DNA of 48,412 nucleotides from positions 1-48,412 of the IMG/VR virus record IMGVR_UViG_3300035698_032172, one strand, 5' to 3'. Under the pieces are notes generated by a model. The model was not told where the DNA came from. It saw only the letters and a list, made by a program, of their open reading frames with translations, and did no database searches. Of this stretch, positions 2,547-46,729 are shown one piece after another. Every line of letters begins with the position of its first letter. The first letter of the stretch is position 1. A program made the translations under genes and the position numbers. Source of the DNA: a virus.

Positions 2547-3893
2547 CTACTTCAGCAACTTCTCTACCTCTACGTGCATCTTCTTCCAAGACTTTGGACT
2601 TTTGCCCATCAAAGTCATGTCATACTGAATGTTCTCCATCAAACCAAACAGTGTTTCCATAAGATACTTCCCATTCGTGTCGATGAACTTCTTAGGATCT
2701 TTGCTCCATCGAAGAGTCCCATCGGCATCCTGAATCAACAAAGCCCTTAGTGCAGATAAAAATGGGAACAAGAAAGAATCATGGATATGCGGCATCTGCG
2801 AAGTGTAGTTGGAGAAATAAAGATCTCTACGCTCAGCCCGTACCAGCTTGCTCGCCCTGACACCTCTCGTTGCCTTTGTCAAGTTTTTTACAGGCCAGAA
2901 AACGAAACCGCCCTGAGCGTTTTTCAATGAGAAAATCGAATCGACTGGTCCAAACTCTTTATTATAGTCGGTGTACATTTCGTAAAACTTGCTCTCTACA
3001 TAATCCCACAGTTCAAGAATCTGAGGAACAAGAGGAAGCAGAGCTTTCCAACCAGCTTTGAAATTTGGATTAAGATACTTCTCAGTCATGTTGCCATTTG
3101 CACTCGAAGCGATACAGCATGATCTGAGCCCAGTTCTAGTTCCATCGCTCTTCATTATACCTTGATTAGGATGAAAGATATAAAGTCTTGCTAGTATCTT
3201 ATTAGGACTATAAACATATTTATAGCCATATCCAGTCTCTGGATCTTTGTGCTCAGCATTCTGTGGCCAACCTACCGCACGCTTATAATCTCCCATAGCA
3301 GTTTTAAGTGTATCAAACTCATGATCCCAATTAGCTATAGTTGTATCTGTTACCGAAGTCCCCGTACTTCGTGCCGCAGCGATCCTCGCCATTTCGGGAC
3401 GACTGGTAACACCGGAAATTACCGAAACAGAAACATAAGATTCTGAAAAATCCACTGGTTTTTCACTATTAAGGGATCTTTTCACTGTATCTTTCACAAC
3501 AGCGGTTGTTGTGAATCCATCAATGACTCCATGTAAAGCATAGCTGCCGGTGAAGTTAGAAAGCGTTACAACAACTTCTTCTTTCTTTTCATCATACACG
3601 GCATCTTCTGCCAGGATACAAACTCCACCGTTTTTCAGATGAAAATCTTCAGGATCGTTCAACACTGAATACGCAATGTTTTTAGGTATCCTTTTACGTA
3701 GCAGACTCTCCGGATGCTCTCTAACATTCACATCCTCGTCATACTCTTGTTGAGCAAACTACTCCATGGGAGCTTGAAAATGAATGGTTTTTCGCCCAAA
3801 AGAGTCTTCTCTAAAGACAGCTTCATTCTTGGGCACGCTAAATCGTAAGATTTTAATCTTCTTACCCTTTTTCTTCTTCTTCTTCTTACTCAT
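2547..3893 (-). CDS. AIPR-like protein interrupted by an in-frame TAG
   Basis: The frame starts at an ATG preceded by AAGGAAAATAATT and reads MSKKKKKKKGKK..., then meets TAG at 3761-3759 (codon 45), and continues open for about 404 more codons to tandem TAG-TAA. Just after the TAG come the hallmarks of the AIPR (abortive-infection phage-resistance) family: NVR, an (F/L)KNGG segment (HLKNGGVCILAED; NNGI in the family), and a GVIDGFTTT stretch where the family has VNGxQT. These lie continuous with the N-terminal part, so one protein is intended. Alternatively translation restarts at GTG 3731, but no good ribosome site is seen there. A nucleoid- or defence-related role is only inferred from the family name. 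Confidence 0.5.
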
Positions 3894-5636: not shown

Positions 5637-6587
5637 TTATACTGTTACTCCAACATTAAAAAATTCTTCAGCATCAACGTACTTACCTATATGCGCTCTC
5701 TTGGCAAATGTCTTGTCAGAAGTTCTATCTCCGACCATGATACATTGCCTTGGGTCAAGCTTATATTTATGAAAGAATGTTACTGCCATTCCTGGCATTG
5801 GTTTCCTACAATAGCAACTGATAGGAGGCACGTTGTGAGGACAATAAGCAACTTCGATTTCACGTTCCAACAGTTCATTTGTCCTATCGAAGCAAGCTAT
5901 AGCTTCTGGTTCTGTAGGAGTACCTTTGGCTATACCCGATTGGTTCGATGCTCCTAAGAGCATGTAACCCTGCTCTGCATAACTGTCAAGTACTTCCTGT
6001 CTGTTGGGAAGTATTATTACGTCATTGGGATCAGACGGCCACTTTGCACCTGACTTTGTGTCTCTAAGAGTTCCATCGTAGTCAAGTAAGACTGCTTTGT
6101 TCACCCAGTCCTTAGGAAAGAGTCTATTAAACTCTCTCTTTATTACCATGCCAAAACCTTCACCAGTTGTTGGTTTTTCAAACTCTTTCTTGTACTTAAA
6201 CAGAACAACAGGAGGGAAGATATTAGGACTCTTCTCTTCTTTCATTTCGGAGGCAGAGAGAATCTTACCTTTACGAGCTATCATCCTCATGCAAGCATTG
6301 AACTGAGCATCTTCGATAGAAGTTGCAACCCACTCACAAATAACTTTAGCTCCGCGTGCATTTGCAGAATCGATGAATGGTTTCCTGCTTATAGCATGTG
6401 GGAACGTGTTGTCTAAAATTACGTTCCTGCCGTTCTCAATTTCTACTTCCATCTTAGGTAATAACGCTATAACAGAGCCACCTACTTGATCTCTATTGAG
6501 GTAAGTATAGCCCTTATCAATATACTCTTGAGCAAAGGATGATTTACCTGATGCGGGATAACCAACTATCATTACTACGTCTGACAT
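5637..6587 (-). CDS. pnkp: Polynucleotide 5'-kinase / 3'-phosphatase
   Basis: A 316-residue bifunctional RNA/DNA end-healing enzyme. The N-terminal kinase has a P-loop (GYPASGKSSF, residues 9-18), an NRDQ motif near 32, and the LDNTF motif near 58 typical of T4-Pnk-like kinases. The C-terminal HAD phosphatase has DYDGTLRD (catalytic aspartates near residue 170), a SNQSG motif, and a late VGDRTSD. Together it converts 3'-phosphate/5'-OH ends to 3'-OH/5'-phosphate ends that RNA ligase can seal. The domain order kinase then phosphatase is as in T4 Pnk. It probably works with the two RNA ligases encoded elsewhere in the window. Confidence 0.9.
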   Translation of the reverse strand: MSDVVMIVGYPASGKSSFAQEYIDKGYTYLNRDQVGGSVIALLPKMEVEIENGRNVILDNTFPHAISRKPFIDSANARGAKVICEWVATSIEDAQFNACMRMIARKGKILSASEMKEEKSPNIFPPVVLFKYKKEFEKPTTGEGFGMVIKREFNRLFPKDWVNKAVLLDYDGTLRDTKSGAKWPSDPNDVIILPNRQEVLDSYAEQGYMLLGASNQSGIAKGTPTEPEAIACFDRTNELLEREIEVAYCPHNVPPISCYCRKPMPGMAVTFFHKYKLDPRQCIMVGDRTSDKTFAKRAHIGKYVDAEEFFNVGVTV

Positions 6588-31787: not shown

Positions 31788-32618
31788 ATGAAAGTTTTTA
31801 CCAAAGAACAAGAGAGTAGAATCGTTAATTTATATATTCAAAATACGTCCATACTCAATATCTCTAAAATTTTCGATACCTCAATTACCCCTATAAAAAG
31901 AATACTAAAAAATAATAATGTAGAAACAAAGAAAAGACAAAAATATACTTTTAACACTACCATATTTGATAAGATCAATACAAAAGCAAAAAGTTATTGG
32001 TTAGGTTTTTTAATGGCAGATGGCAATGTCTGGAATAATTCTTTGAGAGTAAGTCTTAACGAAAAAGATCACAACCATCTAGAAAAATTCAAACAATTCA
32101 TGAATTCTACCCATCCAATAAAACCTCAAAAAAAGAATTGCCATTTGTTTGCTGTGCATAGTTCTGATTTTATAGATAAAATAAAAAAACACGGATTAAT
32201 CCCTAATAAAAGTTTGACCACCATAACCCCCACGACTATTCCCTCAAATCTCCTCTCTCATTTCTATAGAGGCATATTTGATGGAGATGGATGGGTCACT
32301 TCTAAAAAACAAACTAGGCAAAAAAATAATCAAAGATATTATATCGATAAAAGGACATACGAGTTTGGATTTTGCTCTGGATCAAAAGATTTTATTAACC
32401 AGGTGCATCAGTGGATATGTGATCAAATTCAACAAAAAAGAGGATACATCGTCCATAGAAAACAACATAGTAATTCTTGCTACCAGCTTACCTTTGGAGG
32501 CAATGAAGTATTTATTAAAATTTCAAAGATCTTATACAAAAACACAAATTACAACATTTATCTCGATAGAAAAAATAAGAAAACTAAAAATGCCATTATT
32601 AGTATTTTGGAAGGATGA
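31788..32618 (+). CDS. LAGLIDADG homing endonuclease 1 (plus strand)
   Basis: A 276-residue protein on the plus strand, against the direction of almost every other gene. An N-terminal helix-turn-helix (QESRIVNLYIQNTSILNISKIF) is followed by YWLGFLMADGNV (first LAGLIDADG-like helix, acidic residue D) and HFYRGIFDGDGWV (second), so one chain carries both active-site aspartates. AAGGAAAA precedes the ATG. It is free-standing between a metallophosphoesterase gene (divergent) and a convergent gene. A second copy lies near 35 kb, with a nearly identical C-terminal half. Confidence 0.85.
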   Translation: MKVFTKEQESRIVNLYIQNTSILNISKIFDTSITPIKRILKNNNVETKKRQKYTFNTTIFDKINTKAKSYWLGFLMADGNVWNNSLRVSLNEKDHNHLEKFKQFMNSTHPIKPQKKNCHLFAVHSSDFIDKIKKHGLIPNKSLTTITPTTIPSNLLSHFYRGIFDGDGWVTSKKQTRQKNNQRYYIDKRTYEFGFCSGSKDFINQVHQWICDQIQQKRGYIVHRKQHSNSCYQLTFGGNEVFIKISKILYKNTNYNIYLDRKNKKTKNAIISILEG

Positions 32619-32638: not shown

Positions 32639-33172
32639 TCATAATATCACAAACTCTTTCTTTCTATCATTATACTCTGCTAACAAAGTAATTTTTTTCT
32701 TAGTATTAGCTTTCCAAAGACACCCACTTGGAACGTCCCAAGCATAATACCACATCAGATCATTTGCAAACCTCAGGTTATAGAAGTATGGATTAATCTC
32801 TACACCATCATAATCTCTTACCACTCTTTGCCAATCAATATAAACTGATGGAAAATTAGCATAGAAACTATCTGTTCTTCTATATTTTTTGCTAAAGGCA
32901 AAGACATCATCTTCAGTATCAATAAATTTGATGTTCGCTTTTGGGCATAGTTTTAGATCATAGATATATTTTCCTATCCCGCTAAAATCTTCTCCTACGC
33001 ACCAGTCTATCCAGCTACTTCCCATAGCATACCATAGACCAAAGGGTTTAACACCATGAGCAGGGTTGCGAGGTCTTAGAAATCTACCATATTCTTTGTT
33101 AGTAGTAAATACCCTTCTACCATTAAGAAGACCTGTGTCTATTAAATTTTTACTTGCTTTGCTTATCATCAA
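32639..33172 (-). CDS. Hypothetical protein next to ADP-ribosylglycohydrolase
   Basis: A 177-residue aromatic-rich protein with VKPFGLWYAMGSSWIDWC, DSFYANFPSVYIDWQRVVRDYDGVEI and MWYYAWDVPSGCLW motifs. This set is consistent with a conserved enzyme fold, but I do not recognise the family. Its coding start overlaps the ADP-ribosylglycohydrolase end by 23 bases, so the two are made together and may act on the same substrate. Confidence 0.5.
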   Translation of the reverse strand: MMISKASKNLIDTGLLNGRRVFTTNKEYGRFLRPRNPAHGVKPFGLWYAMGSSWIDWCVGEDFSGIGKYIYDLKLCPKANIKFIDTEDDVFAFSKKYRRTDSFYANFPSVYIDWQRVVRDYDGVEINPYFYNLRFANDLMWYYAWDVPSGCLWKANTKKKITLLAEYNDRKKEFVIL

Positions 33173-33938
33173 TTATTTTATAGAAGTCAATAATAATTTT
33201 ATGAAAATCTTCAGGTAAAAGATCCCATGTCGTTTCTATCATATTCACAGGAACCTGTGTATAAAAAGCTTCTGCCAGACCACCTGCCATGCAAGCCAAT
33301 GTATCTGCATCACCACCAAGAGATACAGCCAACCTAACAGCCATCTCATAGCAATCAGAGTCTAAGAATGCTATGATAGCTTCAGGGACAGAAGCTTGAC
33401 AAGACACTTCAAACTTATATGTTGGTCTTATCTCTTTGATTGTCCTTTTCAAATCGTAGTCAAACCTACTTGAGATATAATCTCTGATCTGCTCTTTACT
33501 ATCTCCCTTTCTTGCCAAGTAAATAGCAGCGGCAAGAGCTTCTGCTCCTTTAATACCTTCAGGATGATTATGAGTAACTGATGCACTGACTGCCGCTTCT
33601 TCAATGACTTTCTCTATATCATCAAAAAACCACCCTATCGGAGCAATTCTCATAGCAGAGCCATTGCCCCAACTGTTGTAAGCAGGTTGCATCTCAGGAC
33701 TCGCCGCCCACTCTGCGAATCTTGCTCCCCATCCACACTCCATATAGTCAAGAGCATACTTTTTATATAGCACGTCATAGTCTTGCCTATCTTCGATAAG
33801 TGCCTTTGCCGTTGCTATAGTCAAAACTGTATCATCAGTGAATTTAGATTTTTCGGGGAAGAGAGGAAACCAAACTTCCTTAGTTTTGTTAAACTCATAA
33901 GTCGAACCGACTACATCGCCTATTATTGCTCCTAACAT
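33150..33938 (-). CDS. ADP-ribosylglycohydrolase (DraG/ARH family)
   Basis: A 262-residue enzyme of the ARH family: LGAIIGDVVGS at the start, FTDDTVLT (metal-binding Thr/Asp pair, residues about 33-41), THNHPEGIKGAEALA near 123, and LGGDADTLACMAGGLAEAF near 210 (second metal-binding loop). Such enzymes remove ADP-ribose from proteins or nucleic acids with Mg2+. In a phage it would reverse host ADP-ribosylation defence or regulate modified host proteins. Compact single-domain form, intact. Confidence 0.9.
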   Translation of the reverse strand: MLGAIIGDVVGSTYEFNKTKEVWFPLFPEKSKFTDDTVLTIATAKALIEDRQDYDVLYKKYALDYMECGWGARFAEWAASPEMQPAYNSWGNGSAMRIAPIGWFFDDIEKVIEEAAVSASVTHNHPEGIKGAEALAAAIYLARKGDSKEQIRDYISSRFDYDLKRTIKEIRPTYKFEVSCQASVPEAIIAFLDSDCYEMAVRLAVSLGGDADTLACMAGGLAEAFYTQVPVNMIETTWDLLPEDFHKIIIDFYKIIDDKQSK

Positions 33939-35029: not shown

Positions 35030-35872
35030 ATGAAAAAAATAAATTTTTCTCAAAAAGAAACTAAAAAAATTATCGCCCTGTGTAAAAAAAGAAAAACATT
35101 TAAAGAAATCGCAAAAGAATATAATGTATCACAAAGTACGATACAAAGAATAAGAAAAGAAGAAGGGCTTCCCTTTCAACCACGACAAAAACATAATTTT
35201 GATACAAACATCTTTAATAAAATAGACACCAAAGAAAAGGCATACTGGATAGGTTTCCTTATGGCAGATTGTGGAATCAATGATCGCAATTACTCCTTGC
35301 AGCTAGAAATCTCTCAAAAAGATACAAAACACTTAATAAAATTCAAAAAATTTATGAACGCAAGCAATCCTATAAAAAATACTCGAAAAGGATGTTGTCG
35401 AATTGAGATCTACGGAAAACAATTTGTAGAAAAAATATCAAAACATGGATTAGTTCCTCGAAAAACCTTAATGACGACAACCCCATCGACAATTCCTTCT
35501 AAACTATTATCTCATTTTTATAGAGGTATTCTCGATGGAGACGGATGGGTTACTTCTCGACAACAATGCAAAATAAAAAACGGGGTCAGAAAAGTATATC
35601 CTAGAAGAATTTTTGAATTTGGATTTAGCTCTGGTTCAGAAATATTCATCAATCAAATACACCAGTGGATTTGTGATCAAATACAGCAAAAAAGAGGCTA
35701 TATCATCCATAGAAATCAAAACAATCACTCTTGTTATCAACTAACTTTTGGAGGCAATAATACTTTTATTAAAATTTCAAAGATCTTATATAAAAACACT
35801 GATAAAACTATTTATTTAGATAGAAAATATGAAAAAATACAAAATTCCTTAAAAAGTATTTCTTCATTTTAA
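35030..35872 (+). CDS. LAGLIDADG homing endonuclease 2 (plus strand)
   Basis: A 280-residue plus-strand protein. N-terminal helix-turn-helix (TFKEIAKEYNVSQSTIQRIRKEEG), then YWIGFLMADCGI and HFYRGILDGDGWV as the two LAGLIDADG helices, and a C-terminal half very similar to the copy at 31.8 kb (HQWICDQIQQKRGYI, SCYQLTFGGN, FIKISKILYKNT). AAAGGAAA precedes the ATG. Divergent from metallophosphoesterase 2 and convergent with the next gene. The two copies are paralogues from a duplication or a twice-repeated invasion. Confidence 0.85.
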   Translation: MKKINFSQKETKKIIALCKKRKTFKEIAKEYNVSQSTIQRIRKEEGLPFQPRQKHNFDTNIFNKIDTKEKAYWIGFLMADCGINDRNYSLQLEISQKDTKHLIKFKKFMNASNPIKNTRKGCCRIEIYGKQFVEKISKHGLVPRKTLMTTTPSTIPSKLLSHFYRGILDGDGWVTSRQQCKIKNGVRKVYPRRIFEFGFSSGSEIFINQIHQWICDQIQQKRGYIIHRNQNNHSCYQLTFGGNNTFIKISKILYKNTDKTIYLDRKYEKIQNSLKSISSF

Positions 35873-36466: not shown

Positions 36467-37678
36467 TTATACATTGTCTGTAAATCTATTGACAGCAGAT
36501 GAAGGAGTGTAACCTTCTAAGTAGTTAGCCTTTGGTTTGAAGGCTGAAAATACTTTCCTACGCATCAGGTGTTTAGGATCTAAGTCGTTTAGCTTTTCGT
36601 AGAACTGACCTTTCCTTTTTAGAAAGACATAATTCTTAGAAGTTTTAAATTCGCAGCCCGCAAATGCCTCTGGGTGAGCAGATATATATAAACCCAACTC
36701 TTTATCAGACTTCGACTTTGTTCCTTCGTATAGATCTTCTACTTCTTTAATAAAGGCAGCTAACTTACCTTCAAAGATAGATATCATAGTATCAAAATCT
36801 TTCTCCATCTCTTCTGGCAACTCTTTTTTGATATCTTCTAAATTGTCTCCATGTAGCATCGCTTCCCATATAGCCAAAGGAGTAACTTTAGAAATTATCT
36901 TATGTACGCGAACGTACTCGTCGCCTTTTATCTTGAGACGGATACCGCTCTTGAAACGAATGACATACCCTTCTTCACTCAATGGTAGAGTCTCTGCTCT
37001 TTTCAAGATGCTATCCATATCAGAGAAATCATAGATTTCAGCACATCTTACATTAATATACTTTGACTCTTCTTCTAACCATTCAACATTGTAGTCAAGA
37101 CCAAAGCGGTCAGTCACATTCAACAAGACAAGACCTTCATAGTCATACTGTACAACTATTTTATTTGTAGGATAAACTATCTCGAACAAATAAGTATTTG
37201 TTTTGTCAAGAGCATCGACACGCATATTCTCCTTCATCCATGCCATAGCCCATATAGCTTGCTCTGAAGAAAAACCACCGGCAGTAGATACTCTCCACTC
37301 TCCAGCATAGAAGAACATTATACCTAATGAACCATCTACTTTTTCCATAACTGTAAACTCTGGCTCTATAACAGAAAATGAACCTGACTCTATCTCTCCA
37401 TAGTTGAAAAATTTGAGGAAAGGAGTAGCGACAACAAAATCATCTTTTGTGTCTATGATCAAACCTCTAGCCATAAGAGTAAACTTATTCCAATTCTGCT
37501 CAAAAACGCAGTTTAAAGAATATTTAAACAAAGCTAGTTCAGGGAATTCTGGATGATAGCTGACGTTGATATTATCCGCAGCAACTTCTGCGAACAATCC
37601 CCTCTTCAACTCATTGAATGGAGTTGTGCGTGCTGGATGCTTTATTCCAAAGCTAAATAATTTTTTCATGTCTTCCAT
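36467..37678 (-). CDS. T4 Rnl1-like RNA ligase
   Basis: The ATG at 37678 has AAGGAATT upstream; the protein has 403 residues. It shows FTLMARGLIIDTKDDFVVATPFLKFFNYGE, then TVMEKVDGSLGIMF with the adenylated lysine in EKVDGS (motif I), LFEIVYP (motif IIIa), EGYVIRF and LKIKGDEYV (motifs IV and V). This is the T4 Rnl1 arrangement, which seals broken tRNA anticodon loops after 5' phosphorylation. The C-terminal region is helical. It probably acts with the kinase-phosphatase; a terminator follows directly. Confidence 0.9.
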   Translation of the reverse strand: MEDMKKLFSFGIKHPARTTPFNELKRGLFAEVAADNINVSYHPEFPELALFKYSLNCVFEQNWNKFTLMARGLIIDTKDDFVVATPFLKFFNYGEIESGSFSVIEPEFTVMEKVDGSLGIMFFYAGEWRVSTAGGFSSEQAIWAMAWMKENMRVDALDKTNTYLFEIVYPTNKIVVQYDYEGLVLLNVTDRFGLDYNVEWLEEESKYINVRCAEIYDFSDMDSILKRAETLPLSEEGYVIRFKSGIRLKIKGDEYVRVHKIISKVTPLAIWEAMLHGDNLEDIKKELPEEMEKDFDTMISIFEGKLAAFIKEVEDLYEGTKSKSDKELGLYISAHPEAFAGCEFKTSKNYVFLKRKGQFYEKLNDLDPKHLMRRKVFSAFKPKANYLEGYTPSSAVNRFTDNV

Positions 37679-37701
37679 TTTAATTCCTTCCATAGCCAAT
37701 A

Positions 37702-38290: not shown

Positions 38291-38878
38291 TTATTTTTTA
38301 CTTTGATAGGCATCAAAAACAATAATTGCTTCTTTATATCCCTCATAATAGGCCATAGCCGCAGGTGTGTGTCCATTATTATCTACTGATGTTAGATAGA
38401 GACCTTTTTTGACGTATTTCTTAACAAGACGAATATCTCTCATGGCTATAGCTTCATGAAGTGGAGATCTACCGTATCTTGTGATGACAAGATCGAGATT
38501 CTCTTCTTCGACAGTTTCGACAACTTCGTCAGGACCAGTTAGTCCTTTTTCCTCCATCTCTTTCATCTTTGCTAAAACCCTCTGTTCTGCTTCGTAAAGA
38601 AATTGATATCTAAGCTTGCTAGATTCTTTTTCCCATCTTTCCTCTTCTCTCTGTTGTCTTATATCCTCAATTGCTTCCTGTTTTTCTTTTGAACTGAGAT
38701 TACTAAATTCGATAAATGATTCTTGGTTAATAGTCTCCCAGTCAATATCTGCTTCAAATTCATCTTCATCGAAAATTCCTGATCCTTTCAAATCATTCAT
38801 TATTGTACCGATGTGTTTTCTGTTTACTCCATTTTTGTGCAAAATTTGCAACATTCTATTTTGTTCGTGTAAAGCCAT
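38291..38878 (-). CDS. Ankyrin-repeat protein
   Basis: A 195-residue protein. The first 130 residues are charged and helical (VLAKMKEMEEKGLTGPDE and so on). Then two ankyrin repeats follow: YGRSPLHEAIAMRDIRLVKKYVKKG and NNGHTPAAMAYYEGYKEAIIVFDAY. Phage ankyrin proteins bind host proteins; the partner is unknown. It has no visible strong promoter of its own and lies between two terminator-like sequences. Confidence 0.65.
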   Translation of the reverse strand: MALHEQNRMLQILHKNGVNRKHIGTIMNDLKGSGIFDEDEFEADIDWETINQESFIEFSNLSSKEKQEAIEDIRQQREEERWEKESSKLRYQFLYEAEQRVLAKMKEMEEKGLTGPDEVVETVEEENLDLVITRYGRSPLHEAIAMRDIRLVKKYVKKGLYLTSVDNNGHTPAAMAYYEGYKEAIIVFDAYQSKK

Positions 38879-38931
38879 TAGGATCTCCTAAACCGTCCGT
38901 GGGTATATTAATTTCAGAGAACTTTACTGCT

Positions 38932-38965
38932 AAAAAAGGTAGTGAAGCAACTTGCCTCACTACCT
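38932..38965 (-). terminator. Rho-independent terminator after Ro60 gene
   Basis: GGTAGTGAGGC and GCTTCACTACC form an 11-pair stem (one G-U) with an AAGTT loop, followed by six T. It stands 16 bases after the Ro60 stop. The stem sequence GGTAGTGAG recalls Y RNA stems, probably by chance. Confidence 0.85.
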
Positions 38966-38981
38966 CGGTATGACTTGTAAA

Positions 38982-40715
38982 TTAGAGTCTGCCTGACGCA
39001 AACTCTGAAAGAATCTTAGGCACGTTTGCATCCAATCCTGCAATGTCAATCATGCCTGCATCGTCTGGATCGGCGATAGTAAACTGACTTGCCTCAAAAG
39101 CCAAAACTGCAAGCTTTGCGTCAGGGTTAATCGCCTTACGATACTTCTTCAATGCTTGGAACGGCTGGATAAGTCTACCTGAGTGAGTCTCGCTATCCGT
39201 GAGAACAACGAACACATCAACTTCAAGCTTCTGCTCCAACGCCCATGTCATTGGCAAAGCACAGTCGGTTCCACCAAACGACAAATTAGAAGTCCTTCTA
39301 ATAATAGTTTCATAACTGTCCCTTGCAGTTACCTTCAAAGGAACGAACTGATGAGAAAATGCCATCATCTCATAATTCTTTTCAGTCCTGGCACATGTCA
39401 TAGCAACGACAGCCGCTGCCTCACAAGGAGACAAGATGTTGTTGGCTTGACCGCCCCAATAATAACCGCCGCCCATACTGCCGCTAACATCGATACCAAA
39501 CAAGAACCTCTTGCCAGTTGGCTCAACGAACTTGAACGCCTTGTAGAAAGCATCTTCCATAGCATCCTTGATCGCAGATACTGGCTTCCAAGTAGTTCTC
39601 ATGCCAGCACCATCAGAATAAGTCTTAAGAGCCATCATAATAGTCATTGGATGGATACGTGCCTTCTTCAAATTATCCTCATTAGTAATCTTGTCAATAA
39701 CATCAGTGACTTCACTACTAAGAGACTTTAACAAACCTGAAGAAGTCATGCCGCCAAGGTTACGGATCAACGCTCCCATTGGCATACCCGGCAACAATGC
39801 TCTCTGAACTTCCAACTCATTTCTGAAGTGTGGAGGAACAGACTCTCTTGTCAAGTTAAACTTCTTAACAAGATTAACAACTTCCTTGATCTCGATTGCC
39901 TTGCTGCACTTCTCGTGACCCCAGATATACTTAAGCTTACTATCCTTCAAATCATCAAACTGAGCAGTAGTAAGACCTGCAGCTTCCTGCTTCTTCTCTG
40001 ATGAATAGAACGCTGCCTTCCTCTTAGTAACTTCCTCAACAGTTGTTACACCGTGAGTAGCGTAATGGAAAACAGTTGCATGATCATCAGTAGGAATCTT
40101 CAACGCCTTACCGTTCCTTGAGTTACGAGTTGGACGACACATACGGAGCATGTCCCTATGAGTCCATCTCTGACCACCAATTGAACGACCTGGGTACTTA
40201 CATACCTGATAAGCAAGCTTTACAGCATCCTTCTCAGTGTACCAACGACCCATAGCTCTCAACAGACCCTTACCCTTACGACCATCCTTCAATGCGATTA
40301 CAGCATCGACATAGGTGAAGAACGCAGTTGAGAAACGAGCAACCTTAGGCATAACCTTGTTAGCATAAGCCCTTGTTACCTCATCTCCATGCACACTGCA
40401 AACTGCCAATGCGAACAACGCAGGATCGTTCTTTACAGCACGACCTTCATCGCTGATAGTAACAATACGATCAACAGTTCTCTTGCTGTCCAACTTCAAA
40501 CACCTCAAGACGCAATCGTAGTTCTCAACAGTCAACTGACGCTCTGAGGCGTAGTAGCTGCCATTTTCATTTCCGATAATTAAGAAACGGTCAAGTCTCT
40601 TCCAGTCATCGACCTTAAAGACGAATCCACCATTTCTTGCCTGTACCTGATTAGCTTTAGCTTGCTCCTTTTGTGGAGTCTCAGGGTTCGCGATGTGATC
40701 TACATACTTACTCAT
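38982..40715 (-). CDS. rsr: Ro60/TROVE-domain RNA-binding protein
   Basis: A 577-residue bacterial-type Ro protein, starting MSKYVDHIANPETPQKEQA (AGGAG at proper distance). Residues about 20-370 form the TROVE/HEAT-repeat ring: VFKVDDWKRLDRFLIIGNE, YYASERQLTVEN, NDPALFALAVCSVHGD and HRDMLRMCRP. The C-terminal von Willebrand A domain has FGIDVSGSMGGG (MIDAS DxSxS), GGTDCALP and VVLTDSETHSG, so the metal site is intact. Ro60 binds Y RNA on its outer surface and misfolded RNA ends in its ring, and in bacteria directs RNA decay with PNPase. No Y RNA gene is visible nearby. Occurrence in a phage is rare. Confidence 0.95.
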   Translation of the reverse strand: MSKYVDHIANPETPQKEQAKANQVQARNGGFVFKVDDWKRLDRFLIIGNENGSYYASERQLTVENYDCVLRCLKLDSKRTVDRIVTISDEGRAVKNDPALFALAVCSVHGDEVTRAYANKVMPKVARFSTAFFTYVDAVIALKDGRKGKGLLRAMGRWYTEKDAVKLAYQVCKYPGRSIGGQRWTHRDMLRMCRPTRNSRNGKALKIPTDDHATVFHYATHGVTTVEEVTKRKAAFYSSEKKQEAAGLTTAQFDDLKDSKLKYIWGHEKCSKAIEIKEVVNLVKKFNLTRESVPPHFRNELEVQRALLPGMPMGALIRNLGGMTSSGLLKSLSSEVTDVIDKITNEDNLKKARIHPMTIMMALKTYSDGAGMRTTWKPVSAIKDAMEDAFYKAFKFVEPTGKRFLFGIDVSGSMGGGYYWGGQANNILSPCEAAAVVAMTCARTEKNYEMMAFSHQFVPLKVTARDSYETIIRRTSNLSFGGTDCALPMTWALEQKLEVDVFVVLTDSETHSGRLIQPFQALKKYRKAINPDAKLAVLAFEASQFTIADPDDAGMIDIAGLDANVPKILSEFASGRL

Positions 40716-40743
40716 ACTATGTCTCCTTTCGACATTTCCAACC

Positions 40744-40760
40744 TGACCCGAATGGTCAGA
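40744..40760 (-). other. Hairpin in the Ro60 leader
   Basis: CTGACC and GGTCAG pair perfectly around an ATTCG loop in the 70-base leader of the Ro60 transcript, 28 bases before the start codon. A small stem of this kind could be a site of autoregulation by Ro60 or just stabilise the mRNA; no test is possible here. Confidence 0.35.
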
Positions 40761-40790
40761 TATAATTTTTCTCAACGTTATTTTCAGTTA

Positions 40791-40817
40791 TTATACTTCT
40801 TTTTACTTTGAAGTCAA
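40791..40817 (-). promoter_or_regulatory. Promoter of the Ro60 gene
   Basis: TTGACT (40817-40812), 16 bases, TATAAT (40796-40791) on the minus strand, in a 240-base gap that otherwise holds only AT-rich sequence and a possible 13-residue reading frame. Ro60 is thus its own transcription unit, ending at a strong terminator. Confidence 0.7.
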
Positions 40818-40956: not shown

Positions 40957-42603
40957 CTAAGAATTTTTTCCGCCGAAACCAAAATTAGAGCTTGCTTCTC
41001 CCACTCCGAACTTATCCATAGTCTCTATAATCTCTTCTGCCCACTTTTTATCTATCTCCTTGTCTTTCCTTTTACTGCTTATATGCTTAAGATGTAAACT
41101 ATTAACCATTTCCTGAACTTCTGCACCTGTCCAATCTTCAGTATGTTCTACAAGATAGCCCCAAACATTTCTAGAAACTTTCCAATCAGATAGACGCTCT
41201 CTGAACATTTTATCTCTCAAATCGTCTGATAATGGAGGTATCTCAATGATCCTATCAAACCGTCCAGGTCTGTTTCTTAAAGCCCCTTCAATAGCTTCTA
41301 TTCTATTTGTAGTTCCTATTGTAATAGAATTTTTAATAGAATTAACTCCGTCAAGAACATTCATTAAAGCCCCAAGGGACATTACATCTCCACCACGATC
41401 TCTATCTTGACTGAATAGGTCTAAATCTTCTAATAAGATAATACAGGGTGATAAGAAATCAGCTAACTTATAAAGAGCTTTTATAGAAGACATACTTTTA
41501 TAGTTGTTCTCCGTCAAAATCTCAGGAGTAATCCATATCACAGTATGCTCAGGAACAAGGTTGCAAATAACATTACCTATCGTAGTCTTACCCGTACCAG
41601 GTTTTCCATGTAAAATTATACCCCTTTTGTTAATGCCGAACTTATTATACTGCTCAACATTCTCCATAAAACCAAGCACCTCAAGATCAAACAGTTCTTT
41701 AATGCTCTCAGGATAGTAATAATTATCCCAAGTATATTTGTCATTAATAGTTACTTCCGAGAAAGAAGCAGAAATCATATTAACATCTTTGAGCTTTGCC
41801 CCTCTTAAGCAATTGTTCTCTTTAGAATATTCTTCTAAATTATTAATAAGGTCTTTTGACTTATTGGTATCATTACTATAACAGGTTATTTGAGATCCAC
41901 CTCTCTCTAAGTCTGCATACAAAAAGTATACAACATTATCTTCCTGGTTACCTGTATCACTCTCGAAACATAAAAATCCTGTTATCGTAAAAGTGGTCTC
42001 TTTGCCTTTTACATGCCATGGATTTTTATCCGGGGGAATAGAATTACCCTGTTGATCAAAGTTCAACTCTCCCACAAAATTAAAACCTTTGGTCTTCATA
42101 AATTTCTCTAATGTCTCCATCAATATTAATGTGATAAGAGGATTAGACTGATACGGATGATTCTTTATCTCTCCAACAGTTGTAACGCCCAAAAACCTGC
42201 ACATAATACGATAATCAATAGATGGAATAAAATCTATTTTAATCTGATCTGCAAAATTCTCTTTACCTGTTATTTTTCTTTTACCTTCTTGTTTTTCTGC
42301 CCAATCTTTCATTTGCTTTAAATTTTCAGGAGTTCTAGACTGAATGCCTCCATTACTGGCATAGGCAATTGTAGGAACATCGCTATTTTCATCAATATTT
42401 ATCTTATCAAAAACAATGTTACATTCAGTTTGTCTTACTATCTCCGCTGAAATAGGCATAGAGGAAACTGGTGCTACCATATTTTTACCGCTCATAGATT
42501 CTCCTTGGTTTGCTAGTTCTTCAAGAAATTTATCGATAGCCTCATCATTAGGATCGGGGACGAAATCAATTTCTATAATTTTAGTTCTTTTAGTAAATCC
42601 CAT
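40957..42603 (-). CDS. AAA+ ATPase, BCS1/FtsH-like
   Basis: A 548-residue protein starting at ATG 42603 (MGFTKRTKIIEIDFVPD). The N-terminal 300 residues are a domain without known signature. The AAA+ core is complete: GIILHGKPGTGKTTIGN (Walker A), CIILLEDLDLF (Walker B), GTTNR (sensor 1) and RPGRFDRIIEIPP (arginine finger region), followed by a small lid helix bundle. This subtype acts as protein remodeller or unfoldase. Its -10 box ends six bases before the ATG, so the transcript may be leaderless. It ends with TAG; reading on would give KNMENAKDKK and TGA. It lies directly before the Ro60 promoter. Confidence 0.85.
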   Translation of the reverse strand: MGFTKRTKIIEIDFVPDPNDEAIDKFLEELANQGESMSGKNMVAPVSSMPISAEIVRQTECNIVFDKINIDENSDVPTIAYASNGGIQSRTPENLKQMKDWAEKQEGKRKITGKENFADQIKIDFIPSIDYRIMCRFLGVTTVGEIKNHPYQSNPLITLILMETLEKFMKTKGFNFVGELNFDQQGNSIPPDKNPWHVKGKETTFTITGFLCFESDTGNQEDNVVYFLYADLERGGSQITCYSNDTNKSKDLINNLEEYSKENNCLRGAKLKDVNMISASFSEVTINDKYTWDNYYYPESIKELFDLEVLGFMENVEQYNKFGINKRGIILHGKPGTGKTTIGNVICNLVPEHTVIWITPEILTENNYKSMSSIKALYKLADFLSPCIILLEDLDLFSQDRDRGGDVMSLGALMNVLDGVNSIKNSITIGTTNRIEAIEGALRNRPGRFDRIIEIPPLSDDLRDKMFRERLSDWKVSRNVWGYLVEHTEDWTGAEVQEMVNSLHLKHISSKRKDKEIDKKWAEEIIETMDKFGVGEASSNFGFGGKNS

Positions 42604-42609
42604 AGTTAT

Positions 42610-42637
42610 ACTATAACATAAAACTTTCACTTTTAAA
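42610..42637 (-). promoter_or_regulatory. Promoter-like sequence of the AAA+ gene with AAGTGAAA box
   Basis: TTTAAA (42637-42632), 16 bases, TATAGT (42615-42610) on the minus strand. The spacer holds AGTGAAAG, as in other promoters of the window. The ATG comes six bases after the -10, so transcription would start at or near the start codon. Confidence 0.45.
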
Positions 42638-43049
42638 CTGAAAAATCTAAAATTTCCCACCTATTTTTAATTTTTTCAGGTTTTTCTTCGACAGAGCTTC
42701 CTCCCAGTTGCTCTATGATATGATCTGCTATCTCCGCTATCCTGCTCGTATAACCTTGACAATCCATTACATACTGTCCCTCTGCCACTGTTATATCTTC
42801 ACTGCTAATCACTTTCCTATGATTTTCAAGTTTCACTCCCCCAGGAAAAGACCTGCACATACCTATAGAGATATTTTCTCTTTTTACACAAAATTCTTTT
42901 ATCTTCTTTAAAAGATCAATTGTGACGCAAGACTCATGCATAGGAGGATATATAGGCATACCTTGACAACCACAATCTTGACCACCACAACAATATTCTG
43001 GCTCAAAATCTTCTACAGGCTGTCCACAGAAGAAACACTTATTTGTCAT
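42633..43049 (-). CDS. Cysteine-rich zinc-binding protein
   Basis: A 138-residue protein. The N-terminal 50 residues carry CFFCGQP, then YCCGGQDCGCQGM and HESC, a double zinc site. The rest is alpha/beta (INIGM-like ISIGMCRSFPGGVKLENHRKVISSEDITVAEGQYVMDCQGYTSR) with a helical end. Function unknown, probably a structural zinc module. Confidence 0.55.
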   Translation of the reverse strand: MTNKCFFCGQPVEDFEPEYCCGGQDCGCQGMPIYPPMHESCVTIDLLKKIKEFCVKRENISIGMCRSFPGGVKLENHRKVISSEDITVAEGQYVMDCQGYTSRIAEIADHIIEQLGGSSVEEKPEKIKNRWEILDFSV

Positions 43050-43320: not shown

Positions 43321-44262
43321 TTAGTAATCTGTAGTAACAGTTAAATGGAACTGGTCAGTACATTGTTTTCTATTGAGCCATAGATAGGTATCTACGTCAC
43401 ACATGCTTAAACCTGATGACAATGCCAACAATTTGCACACCATTTCAGTTGCGGCTCTGATCTCAGCTTCCATCAAAGATCCAGCAGGTATTAAAATATT
43501 ATTAGATATCATGTCAGATAATTTTTTAGAGTACGTTATGCACCCCAACCATCTGAGCATTTTAGGCACTTGATAATCAGCTGGAACTGGTAGTCTAGAA
43601 ATATCTTTTTTGAACCACTGCACTCTCCTATAAAGCATCATAGCTAACAAGAATGGTCTCTTCAAAAACATATCTCCGGCATAGCCAGGATAATGAGAAA
43701 TTACTGTTCTTAAAAACATATCTACAGTAAGGATATTTCCATGTATAGCTGTTATAATATCAGATATAACATTAGGTCCATCTTTCATACTATCAAGGAT
43801 TTCTTGAACATGATGTATCCTTTTTTCGGCATTAGGTAATCTTTGGTCAGCTATCATACCCATAAAGTGTTTGCATGCGTCATCGCAAACCACCCTATGC
43901 CCTACAGAATGTATAGATCCTGCAAGTTCAAAACTTTCATCAAGCATTGCATACATCTTAGTAGCACCAGAATTATTAAGTCTTATATCTGATTTGCCAT
44001 ACCAGTATTGATAGTTAACTGCCCCTGCCATCAATTCATAAGATAAGAGCATATAGTCGATCTCTTCTTTACCTCTGACTTCTGGTTCAAACCATATAGG
44101 ATAACCCATCCAAAATTCTTTCTGCTCTTCTATCTTTTTTCTTAAATTTCCAGCCACTTCTGTTATGCGTTTCTCATCATATGTAACGTACTGAGGATTT
44201 TTCATTAGTTCTTCTGATAAGTCCATAACTGAACCTATCAAGTCTACCTTTTCAAGTTCCAT
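43321..44262 (-). CDS. Hypothetical 313-residue helical protein
   Basis: A long soluble, mostly helical protein without recognised motif. Stretches such as DMFLKRPFLLAMMLYRRVQWFKKDI and several conserved-looking aromatic patches (WMGYPIWFEPEVRGKEEIDYMLL) suggest an independent fold. AAGGAAAA lies before the ATG. It follows the small membrane gene by an 11-base overlap. Confidence 0.55.
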   Translation of the reverse strand: MELEKVDLIGSVMDLSEELMKNPQYVTYDEKRITEVAGNLRKKIEEQKEFWMGYPIWFEPEVRGKEEIDYMLLSYELMAGAVNYQYWYGKSDIRLNNSGATKMYAMLDESFELAGSIHSVGHRVVCDDACKHFMGMIADQRLPNAEKRIHHVQEILDSMKDGPNVISDIITAIHGNILTVDMFLRTVISHYPGYAGDMFLKRPFLLAMMLYRRVQWFKKDISRLPVPADYQVPKMLRWLGCITYSKKLSDMISNNILIPAGSLMEAEIRAATEMVCKLLALSSGLSMCDVDTYLWLNRKQCTDQFHLTVTTDY

Positions 44263-45610: not shown

Positions 45611-46729
45611 TTATTCGTCTTTAAAATCTACAACTTCTCCCTTTGCTTCTCTGCTACCTTTTAGGATAAGATAATCAGGATTAAGCATCTTCAGGATACA
45701 ACGTCCAAGCTTAGGATCTCTTCTTTCCTTAACGGGATAGATTACAATACCTTCTCTAATTTGCTCTTTGCCATTCTGTTGAGCGAGTAGAGAATTTCCA
45801 GTAGCTAATGTCCTAAGCTTATCAAGATTAAAAGTTGTCTTGATAATAGTAGGAACCACTGGAACATGAAATTTAGCACAAAGACTATAAAATTTATCCC
45901 AGTCGATAAAGTTACTATCTACTTGAATACCATAAGCAGCAAAGCCATAGTTGTTAGGAGTTCCGTAGTCCATTGACTTATGACCACCACGAATACTACC
46001 TCCATAGACTTCTCCGAAGAGAGTAACAGTTCTTGTCTCTAAAGCTGAATCTTCAAACTCTTTGTTAATAATATCACCGTAATATTTCAACATAGCTATA
46101 ACAGAGGGGATAGTCCAAGGATACCAATGGGGATTAGATGACATATGCCACAAAGGAGGTTGAGTTCTTTTATAACTCATTGAGCCTGCCTTAAAATCTA
46201 CTTCTCCGATAATGCTCATCTCAAAACCAACACGATCATTAGTCCCATCGATCTTTTCTGTAACAATAACTTCCTCTCCCTCAACAAATGAATCAGGAAA
46301 ATTATTAATGTTCTCAACGTCTGTGAAAGCAGGAAACAGGATATCTCTTGGAGCAGCATCTGCGGCTGTAGCTCTTACGGGAGCAACATACTTAGTGATA
46401 CCGAAATGCTCTGATACGTCTTCACCTTCTGCCCAACTCCCTTCATTATCAAGGATAAGACCATAAGACATTTCACCTCGAAGCCTAGCGCACCTGACAC
46501 GATCTTTATCTTGTCCTGTAAGATAATTTCTTACATTCCACTTATCAGCCAGACCAGTCGGTATAACAGCATCCATAGGAACATAGACAATCAAATCACC
46601 TTCTTTGAACTGATCCCTGCCAACGACTACTTGCCAACCTTTGACGAGTGACAAATCAAGCCGATCTGCCGATGGGTGATGGCGGATATCTGTTATCCTA
46701 CACACTTCTACTATCAAACTGCTAGCCAT
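45611..46729 (-). CDS. DraRnl (Rnl5)-type RNA ligase
   Basis: A 372-residue ligase of the Deinococcus RNA ligase family. The N-terminal 100 residues form the OB-fold module (VEVCRITDIRHHPSADRLDLSLVKGWQVVVGRDQFKEGDLIVYVP ... RLRGEMSYGLIL) typical of this family. The nucleotidyltransferase domain follows: VTEKIDGTND with the adenylated Lys near 157 (motif I), TLFGEVYGG (motif III), EGIVIYP (motif IV), and GRCILKMLNPDYL (motif V). Members seal nicked RNA in RNA-DNA hybrids, different from the Rnl1 type near 37 kb. AAGGGG precedes the ATG. Confidence 0.9.
   Translation of the reverse strand: MASSLIVEVCRITDIRHHPSADRLDLSLVKGWQVVVGRDQFKEGDLIVYVPMDAVIPTGLADKWNVRNYLTGQDKDRVRCARLRGEMSYGLILDNEGSWAEGEDVSEHFGITKYVAPVRATAADAAPRDILFPAFTDVENINNFPDSFVEGEEVIVTEKIDGTNDRVGFEMSIIGEVDFKAGSMSYKRTQPPLWHMSSNPHWYPWTIPSVIAMLKYYGDIINKEFEDSALETRTVTLFGEVYGGSIRGGHKSMDYGTPNNYGFAAYGIQVDSNFIDWDKFYSLCAKFHVPVVPTIIKTTFNLDKLRTLATGNSLLAQQNGKEQIREGIVIYPVKERRDPKLGRCILKMLNPDYLILKGSREAKGEVVDFKDE

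Follow-up and report, generated by a model that had tools for sequence, protein, structure and literature searches.

A Ro60 protein in a jumbo-phage lineage whose relatives encode two to five YrlA-like Y RNAs inside tRNA arrays

Decades after Ro60 and the Y RNAs became known, their role is still not agreed upon, and a viral copy of the protein raises the question of what a phage would do with it and which RNA would be its partner. We addressed this for a 48,412-base virus record (IMG/VR IMGVR_UViG_3300035698_032172; hereinafter the window, meaning the whole stretch of DNA analysed), nearly all of whose genes lie on the minus strand and which carries a complete Ro60 gene of TROVE-vWA architecture (38982-40715, minus strand; 577 amino acids, ATG start). 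On its own such a gene adds little; the importance of the locus would lie in phage genomes, related to the window, that encode Ro60 plus two to five Y RNAs, and the virus therefore probably brings its own complete RNA-handling particle, not the host's.

The domains and residues of the window protein identify it as a genuine Ro60, a new member of an already known protein type, for which binding of Y RNA is predicted. Pfam recovers both of its domains well above their curated cut-offs (TROVE, 104.3 bits versus 23; vWA_Ro60, PF25045, 191.8 bits versus 27.7; Table 1), and the metal ion-dependent adhesion site (MIDAS: D409-x-S411-x-S413, T483 and D507) is invariant across 63 viral Ro60s, in agreement with the intact ring and complete MIDAS that the initial annotation had read from the gene. 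A search of PDB sequences matched the protein at full length to Xenopus Ro60 (1yvp; E 1.7e-108, residues 18-572). An AlphaFold2 model made with the 63 viral homologues in the alignment reached a mean pLDDT of 92.1 and a pTM of 0.90 (an alignment of four sequences had given a pLDDT of 55.6 and was of no use); it has the predicted closed-ring fold, and the solved structures closest to it in Foldseek are vertebrate Ro60s with RNA (best, 9nep, E 1.7e-41, TM 0.86/0.93; next, 1yvp and 2i91). Like vertebrate Ro60 (Xenopus 1yvp/2i91; human 9nen/9nep), the window protein thus combines a closed TROVE ring with a vWA domain bearing a MIDAS, but it is only about 37% identical to it. K170, R174 and H187 of Xenopus Ro60 take part in Y RNA binding; in the PDB sequence alignment, the first two correspond to K173 and R177 of the window protein, both invariant in the 63 viral proteins.

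Viral copies of Ro60, at first taken to be rare, proved to be common: a homologue is annotated in 340 phage records and present in at least 350 IMG/VR contigs. 'Ro-like RNA binding protein' is the routine annotation for those of actinophages, and the structure of the Ro60 of Thermus phage phiLo has already been solved (9l5y). TROVE proteins of jumbo phages are mentioned in PMC7824862 and PMC7765460, and an Rsr of Listeria phage CKA15, with three nearby, strongly transcribed putative noncoding RNAs, in PMC12282133. A single-protein search of genome contigs gave no match, and a profile search gave 433. The nearest relatives of the window Ro60 are those of the viral contigs G001 (298 kb; 73% identity in global alignment), G004 (351 kb; 71%), G003 (548 kb; 68%), G002 (43 kb; 61%) and G005 (219 kb; 60%), and in a phylogenetic tree the window and these five form a clade of six viral contigs with 100% support, which adjoins the viral contig L116 within a viral group of ten; the best bacterial Ro60, by contrast, is only 43-44% identical to the window protein. 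G001 and G003 retain the gene order AAA+ - Ro60 - small protein - Rnl1, Ro60 being the most conserved of the four genes. Both these genomes also encode a phage-type DNA polymerase, helicases and a CCA-adding enzyme, G003 additionally encodes virion structural proteins, and large tRNA arrays are found in the relatives. Searches of the relatives for Terminase_6N and Gp23 gave no match, and their phage identity accordingly rests on the replication genes, the virion structural matches of G003 and their IMG/VR status. We assign the window, a 48-kb fragment, to a jumbo-phage lineage.

Three of these relatives encode Y RNAs. The top Rfam YrlA (RF02553) score in the clade comes from a full-length match (1-114) in G001, flanked by two tRNA genes, and at 37.2 bits it lies under the gathering score of 69; hence, we name the RNAs of the relatives YrlA-like only. 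With a covariance model of 14 RNAs (R1; 13 from actinophages and one from G001), we recovered matches in G001 (at 247518, 53.5 bits, not in the model; at 251250, 107 bits, in the model), G003 (at 179641, 66.2 bits, E 8e-15, not in the model) and G004 (at 331684, 80.2 bits, and 328917, 75.5 bits, neither in the model). Scanning for a Ro60 box with closing stems yielded five Y RNAs in G001 (247537, 247867, 249845, 251269 and 251585), two in G003 (179757 and 181198) and, in G004, five orthologous to those of G001 and in the same order (328.9-332.1 kb; L181 13936-17088). In all three genomes they are interleaved with tRNA genes, and ARAGORN called no tRNA at their sites. The set also accounts for unassigned RNAs in phage tRNA arrays. 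One of them, Ya, is flanked by tRNA-Pro and tRNA-Ala in G001, G003 and G004, and another, Yb, by tRNA-Ile(gat) and tRNA-Val in G001 and G004. All twelve contain GGUUGA, GUUAUCG and CA-Y-AUC, and RNAalifold pairs GGUUG with CA(Y)AUC, leaving one bulged pyrimidine, with a covarying outer stem closing the structure; a similar bulged helix is known from animal Y RNAs. The RNAs would fall into up to five classes: two with a full permuted tRNA module (Ya and Yb, in which a complete permuted T-arm, stem and D-arm are closed by the predicted Ro60-binding stem), two with a reduced module, and one minimal short class (Ys), which keeps the Ro60 box without a tRNA-like module.

R1 detects Y RNAs beside Ro60 genes of both phages and bacteria. 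At the bacterial loci, none of which was used in building it, all of its 47 matches lie on the Ro60 strand, as do 63 of 63 beside 77 viral Ro60 genes. On the Ro60-negative, tRNA-rich phages KVP40, T5, RaK2, nt-1, XacN1 and 121Q it scores at most 35.9 bits; since KVP40, which is without TROVE, attains this value over the full length of the model, we distrust matches under about 40 bits, and partial matches (about 33-105) correspond to tRNA-array junctions. A seventh control of this kind, Caulobacter phage CcrColossus (NC_019406), was discarded: it has a diverged TROVE gene that tblastn had missed and, directly adjoining this gene, three tandem YrlA-like RNAs of 47-57 bits (the whole locus at 107635-108432 and 108822-109456, minus strand). 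In Bacillus phage G (NC_023719), a partial match of 38.4 bits is less than 3 kb away from an open frame with weak TROVE similarity, below the family cut-off (Table 1), and the two might possibly be a very diverged Ro60-Y pair. In Rhodococcus phage Trina (NC_042040), a pseudo 'tRNA-OTHER' (84277-84485) upstream of Ro60 overlaps matches to the Y-RNA model and probably represents misannotated Y RNAs. Near a Y-RNA-like match in the tRNA array of Gordonia phage GMA2, we also observed a Pistol ribozyme above its gathering score (L063:5491-5547).

As to what such a system would do, we lean towards a phage-made Ro60 ribonucleoprotein that, with phage-encoded Y RNAs, surveys structured RNA, tRNA in particular, beside the phage's ligases and kinase. 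Its Y RNAs would come from about 44-55 kb downstream of Ro60, on the same strand and inside the tRNA array, and would clamp the outside of the ring through the bulged-helix Ro60 box. The ring cavity would accept single-stranded 3′ ends from structured RNAs that are broken or misfolded, chiefly the phage's own tRNAs, and the tRNA-like module, or another form of Y RNA tip, may gate this cavity or position a partner enzyme. The captured RNA would then be repaired by Rnl1, the Rnl2-like ligase or the kinase/3′-phosphatase, or else be passed to a host exonuclease; between repair and decay, sequence cannot decide. The initial suggestion that the phage Ro60 binds damaged RNA is plausible. More tentatively, it is possible that these jumbo phages combine one Ro60 with up to five dispersed classes of Y RNA acting in trans as exchangeable adaptors that maintain the tRNA pool, each providing the same ring with another enzyme or substrate. 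If true, one ring combined with Y RNAs of minimal, reduced and tRNA-mimic type would make each RNA module separately testable, with infection giving clear read-outs such as tRNA cleavage and burst size.

Several points weigh against this phage-made particle. The window gave no Y RNA either with Rfam (at the gathering score or at E<5) or with R1, the model that recovered them in G001, G003 and G004, run without filters (best, 11.2 bits), and the motif and stem scan of the window likewise gave 0 matches (shuffles, 0-1). This absence is expected, since the window ends 39.0 kb downstream of Ro60, nearer to it than the first Y RNA downstream of Ro60 in G004 (43.8 kb), G003 (46.9 kb) or G001 (50.8 kb). 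G002 and G005, which end 7 and 12 kb downstream, are also without Y RNAs, while each of the three relatives whose sequence continues for 44 kb or more past Ro60 on the downstream side has them. The Y RNAs of the window's phage thus very probably lie just beyond the left end of the fragment, a location that we infer from synteny. In the window protein and its close relatives, moreover, the position of Xenopus H187 is an arginine, most other phage Ro60s having histidine there, and the RNAs of the clade stay below the YrlA gathering score. The pairing counts that speak for the model, taken from an alignment of 26 phage Y RNAs (cells paired, 97.3%; compensatory change at 20 of the 22 pairs; 145 doubly changed cells; a level reached by 0/500 shuffles), lean high, the alignment being fitted to the structure. 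Finally, the phages StarPlatinum and Atu_ph07 carry Ro60 with no detectable Y RNA, and a nuclease is not among the conserved neighbours of Ro60.

The last of these points also bears on a RYPER-like decay machine, in which Ro60 and a Y RNA would tether host PNPase and degrade host rRNA or tRNA in place of repairing RNA, thereby freeing nucleotides or reshaping translation. Such a mechanism would follow the Rsr-Y RNA-PNPase complex of Deinococcus, the sole biochemically worked-out bacterial case (PMC7790460), and the Rsr of the Listeria phage with its three putative noncoding RNAs is read as RYPER-like in PMC12282133. No PNPase or RNase_PH domain was found in the five phage records, such that a host enzyme would be needed. 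However, the conserved neighbourhood of the phage gene holds no nuclease, and ligases and a kinase lie nearby instead. We regard this reading as doubtful. The complete permuted T-arm/D-arm modules of Ya and Yb, and the placement of the Y genes inside tRNA arrays, could also speak for decoys that, stabilised by Ro60, protect the phage tRNAs by absorbing tRNA-binding effectors or anticodon nucleases of the host, in line with the role of competitive inhibitor raised for YrlA (PMC7790460). This is unlikely, the module having no anticodon arm and Ys keeping the Ro60 box yet lacking the module altogether. Comparably improbable is a dedicated Ro60/AAA+ pair, in which the Cdc48-like ATPase would load RNA or Y RNA onto the ring or strip it off as a switch of infection state, or alternatively use the vWA/MIDAS face of Ro60 as an adaptor: the gene for this Cdc48-type AAA protein adjoins Ro60 upstream in the window, G001, G002 and G003, but adjacency is all that links the two, they form separate units (a terminator and promoter lie between them in G001, a promoter in the window), and neither in actinophages nor in Phosso was an AAA+ gene seen next to Ro60. 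The alternative suggested at the outset, that the phage supplies only Ro60 and hijacks a host Y RNA, would fit a 48-kb window without Y RNA; the relatives with sufficient downstream sequence, however, encode two to five of their own, the others being cut at 7 or 12 kb, which makes capture unnecessary and this reading decidedly unlikely. Lastly, although many bacterial phyla have Ro60, host contamination or a chimeric contig with a recently acquired host gene is very unlikely, to the point of being negligible, given the fully supported clade of six viral contigs, the 43-44% bacterial versus 60-73% viral identity, a gene order kept over tens of kb, and the phage replication and virion genes of the relatives, all of which uphold the original assignment of this virus record to a phage and not to a chromosome.

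The known partners of Ro60 in bacteria are PNPase in Deinococcus and RtcB in Salmonella (PMC7790460). RtcB, like PNPase, is encoded in none of the five records, and neither bacterial arrangement is therefore copied as such. The Rsr of Deinococcus radiodurans (2nvo) shares its domain architecture with the window protein and has YrlA-type partners as do the window's relatives, but the phage Y RNAs are placed 44-55 kb from the Ro60 gene, within a tRNA array, instead of beside rsr, and the phage has no PNPase. The rsr-yrlBA-rtcBA operon of Salmonella likewise unites Ro60, a YrlA-like RNA and RNA ligation in one genome; the phage arrangement differs in not being an operon and in having ATP-dependent ligases and a kinase in place of RtcB. 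Rfam YrlA matches adjoin Ro60 in many actinophages, and YrlA-like RNAs stand directly beside the gene (phrog_850) in most of the loci checked, unlike in the jumbo clade, where they are far from Ro60; the actinophage proteins are 34-41% identical to that of the window. The phiLo Ro60 dimer (9l5y) is also a phage TROVE protein, but with 16-17% identity and a TM of about 0.5-0.6. A possible role of phage Ro60 in RNA repair or decay is recognised for Listeria CKA15 Rsr (PMC12282133) and the jumbo-phage TROVE proteins (PMC7824862, PMC7765460), and the available parts of these three sources describe no multi-member set of Y RNAs in a tRNA array; as far as the literature consulted shows, such a dispersed set is a new form.

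Around the window gene, the promoter and strong terminator claimed at the outset were both recovered, and the prediction that Ro60 forms a unit of its own for transcription is well supported (Table 1). The promoter is the second-best match of the region and has a counterpart at the same place upstream of Ro60 in L002 and L004, although promoter-like matches as a class are not commoner than in shuffled sequence (25 versus 22.7). The terminator was overlooked by a consensus scan and picked up by its folding energy (-21.4 kcal/mol, z -6.2; 0/200 shuffles equally stable). L002 and L004 have a terminator-like hairpin of different sequence at the matching place, and the hairpin downstream of Ro60 in L003 is no different from shuffles. 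A hairpin in the 5′ untranslated region (40743-40759), considered as an autoregulatory or Y-like element, was rejected, having no counterpart in the leaders of L002-L004. Directly upstream of Ro60 in L002 and L004, an imperfect inverted repeat (TTTCTACTTGAC...AAAGTAGAAA) overlaps the promoter; it is possibly the operator of a phage regulator and is weaker in the window.

Table 1. Features of the window around and beyond Ro60, and the candidate pair of Bacillus phage G (window positions unless another record is named).
Feature	Position	Strand	Evidence
TROVE (HEAT-like ring) domain	39627..40640	-	residues 26-363; Pfam PF05731 E 1.2e-29
vWA_Ro60 domain	38997..39509	-	residues 403-573; Pfam PF25045 E 1.1e-56; MIDAS intact
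Predicted Ro60 promoter, TTGACT-16-TATAAT	40790..40817	-	11/12 consensus matches
Shine-Dalgarno, AGGAG	40723..40727	-	7 nt ahead of Ro60 ATG, read from sequence
Predicted intrinsic terminator of Ro60	38930..38966	-	14-bp hairpin (38966-38936), then U6
AAA+ ATPase, Cdc48-like	40957..42660	-	Pfam AAA 2.1e-21; PDB Cdc48 4.3e-42
Small protein, downstream of Ro60	38291..38878	-	weak ankyrin-like match, E 0.0056, below cut-off; order conserved
T4 Rnl1-type RNA ligase	36467..37699	-	Pfam RNA_lig_T4_1 2.5e-15; phrog_562 1.1e-58
Second RNA ligase, Rnl2-like (RNA_ligase + PHA02142 OB-fold)	45611..46729	-	Pfam 1.9e-17, 3.9e-15
Polynucleotide kinase/3′-phosphatase	5637..6587	-	Pfam PNK3P 2.1e-9, AAA_33 2.2e-9; phrog_505
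Queuosine-salvage-like protein	43321..44262	-	Pfam Q_salvage 6.5e-14; conserved in G001, G002, G003
ADP-ribosylglycohydrolase	33150..33938	-	Pfam 2.6e-40
R1 match and TROVE-like open frame, Bacillus phage G	405238-405322 and 408158-408346		

The neighbourhood of an AAA+ protein and RNA-sealing genes, noted from the start, is borne out by domain matches to the ATPase and both ligases (Table 1). In the window, G001, G002 and G003, the AAA+ proteins encoded next to Ro60 on its upstream side are 53-65% identical, and the Cdc48 match was obtained with a profile of three orthologues; the AAA+ query itself returned no viral relatives, a limit of the pattern search, since orthologues exist in these three genomes. 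The 48-kb window contains no tRNA gene and no Rfam match. Its sole large plus-strand genes are two related phrog_4645 endonuclease genes (31788-32618 and 35030-35872), whose positions vary in the relatives, which suggests mobile elements of the homing type. The window further encodes, on the minus strand at 2547-3731, a protein of the AIPR family (an abortive-infection phage-resistance family), for which no counterpart was found in G001-G003.
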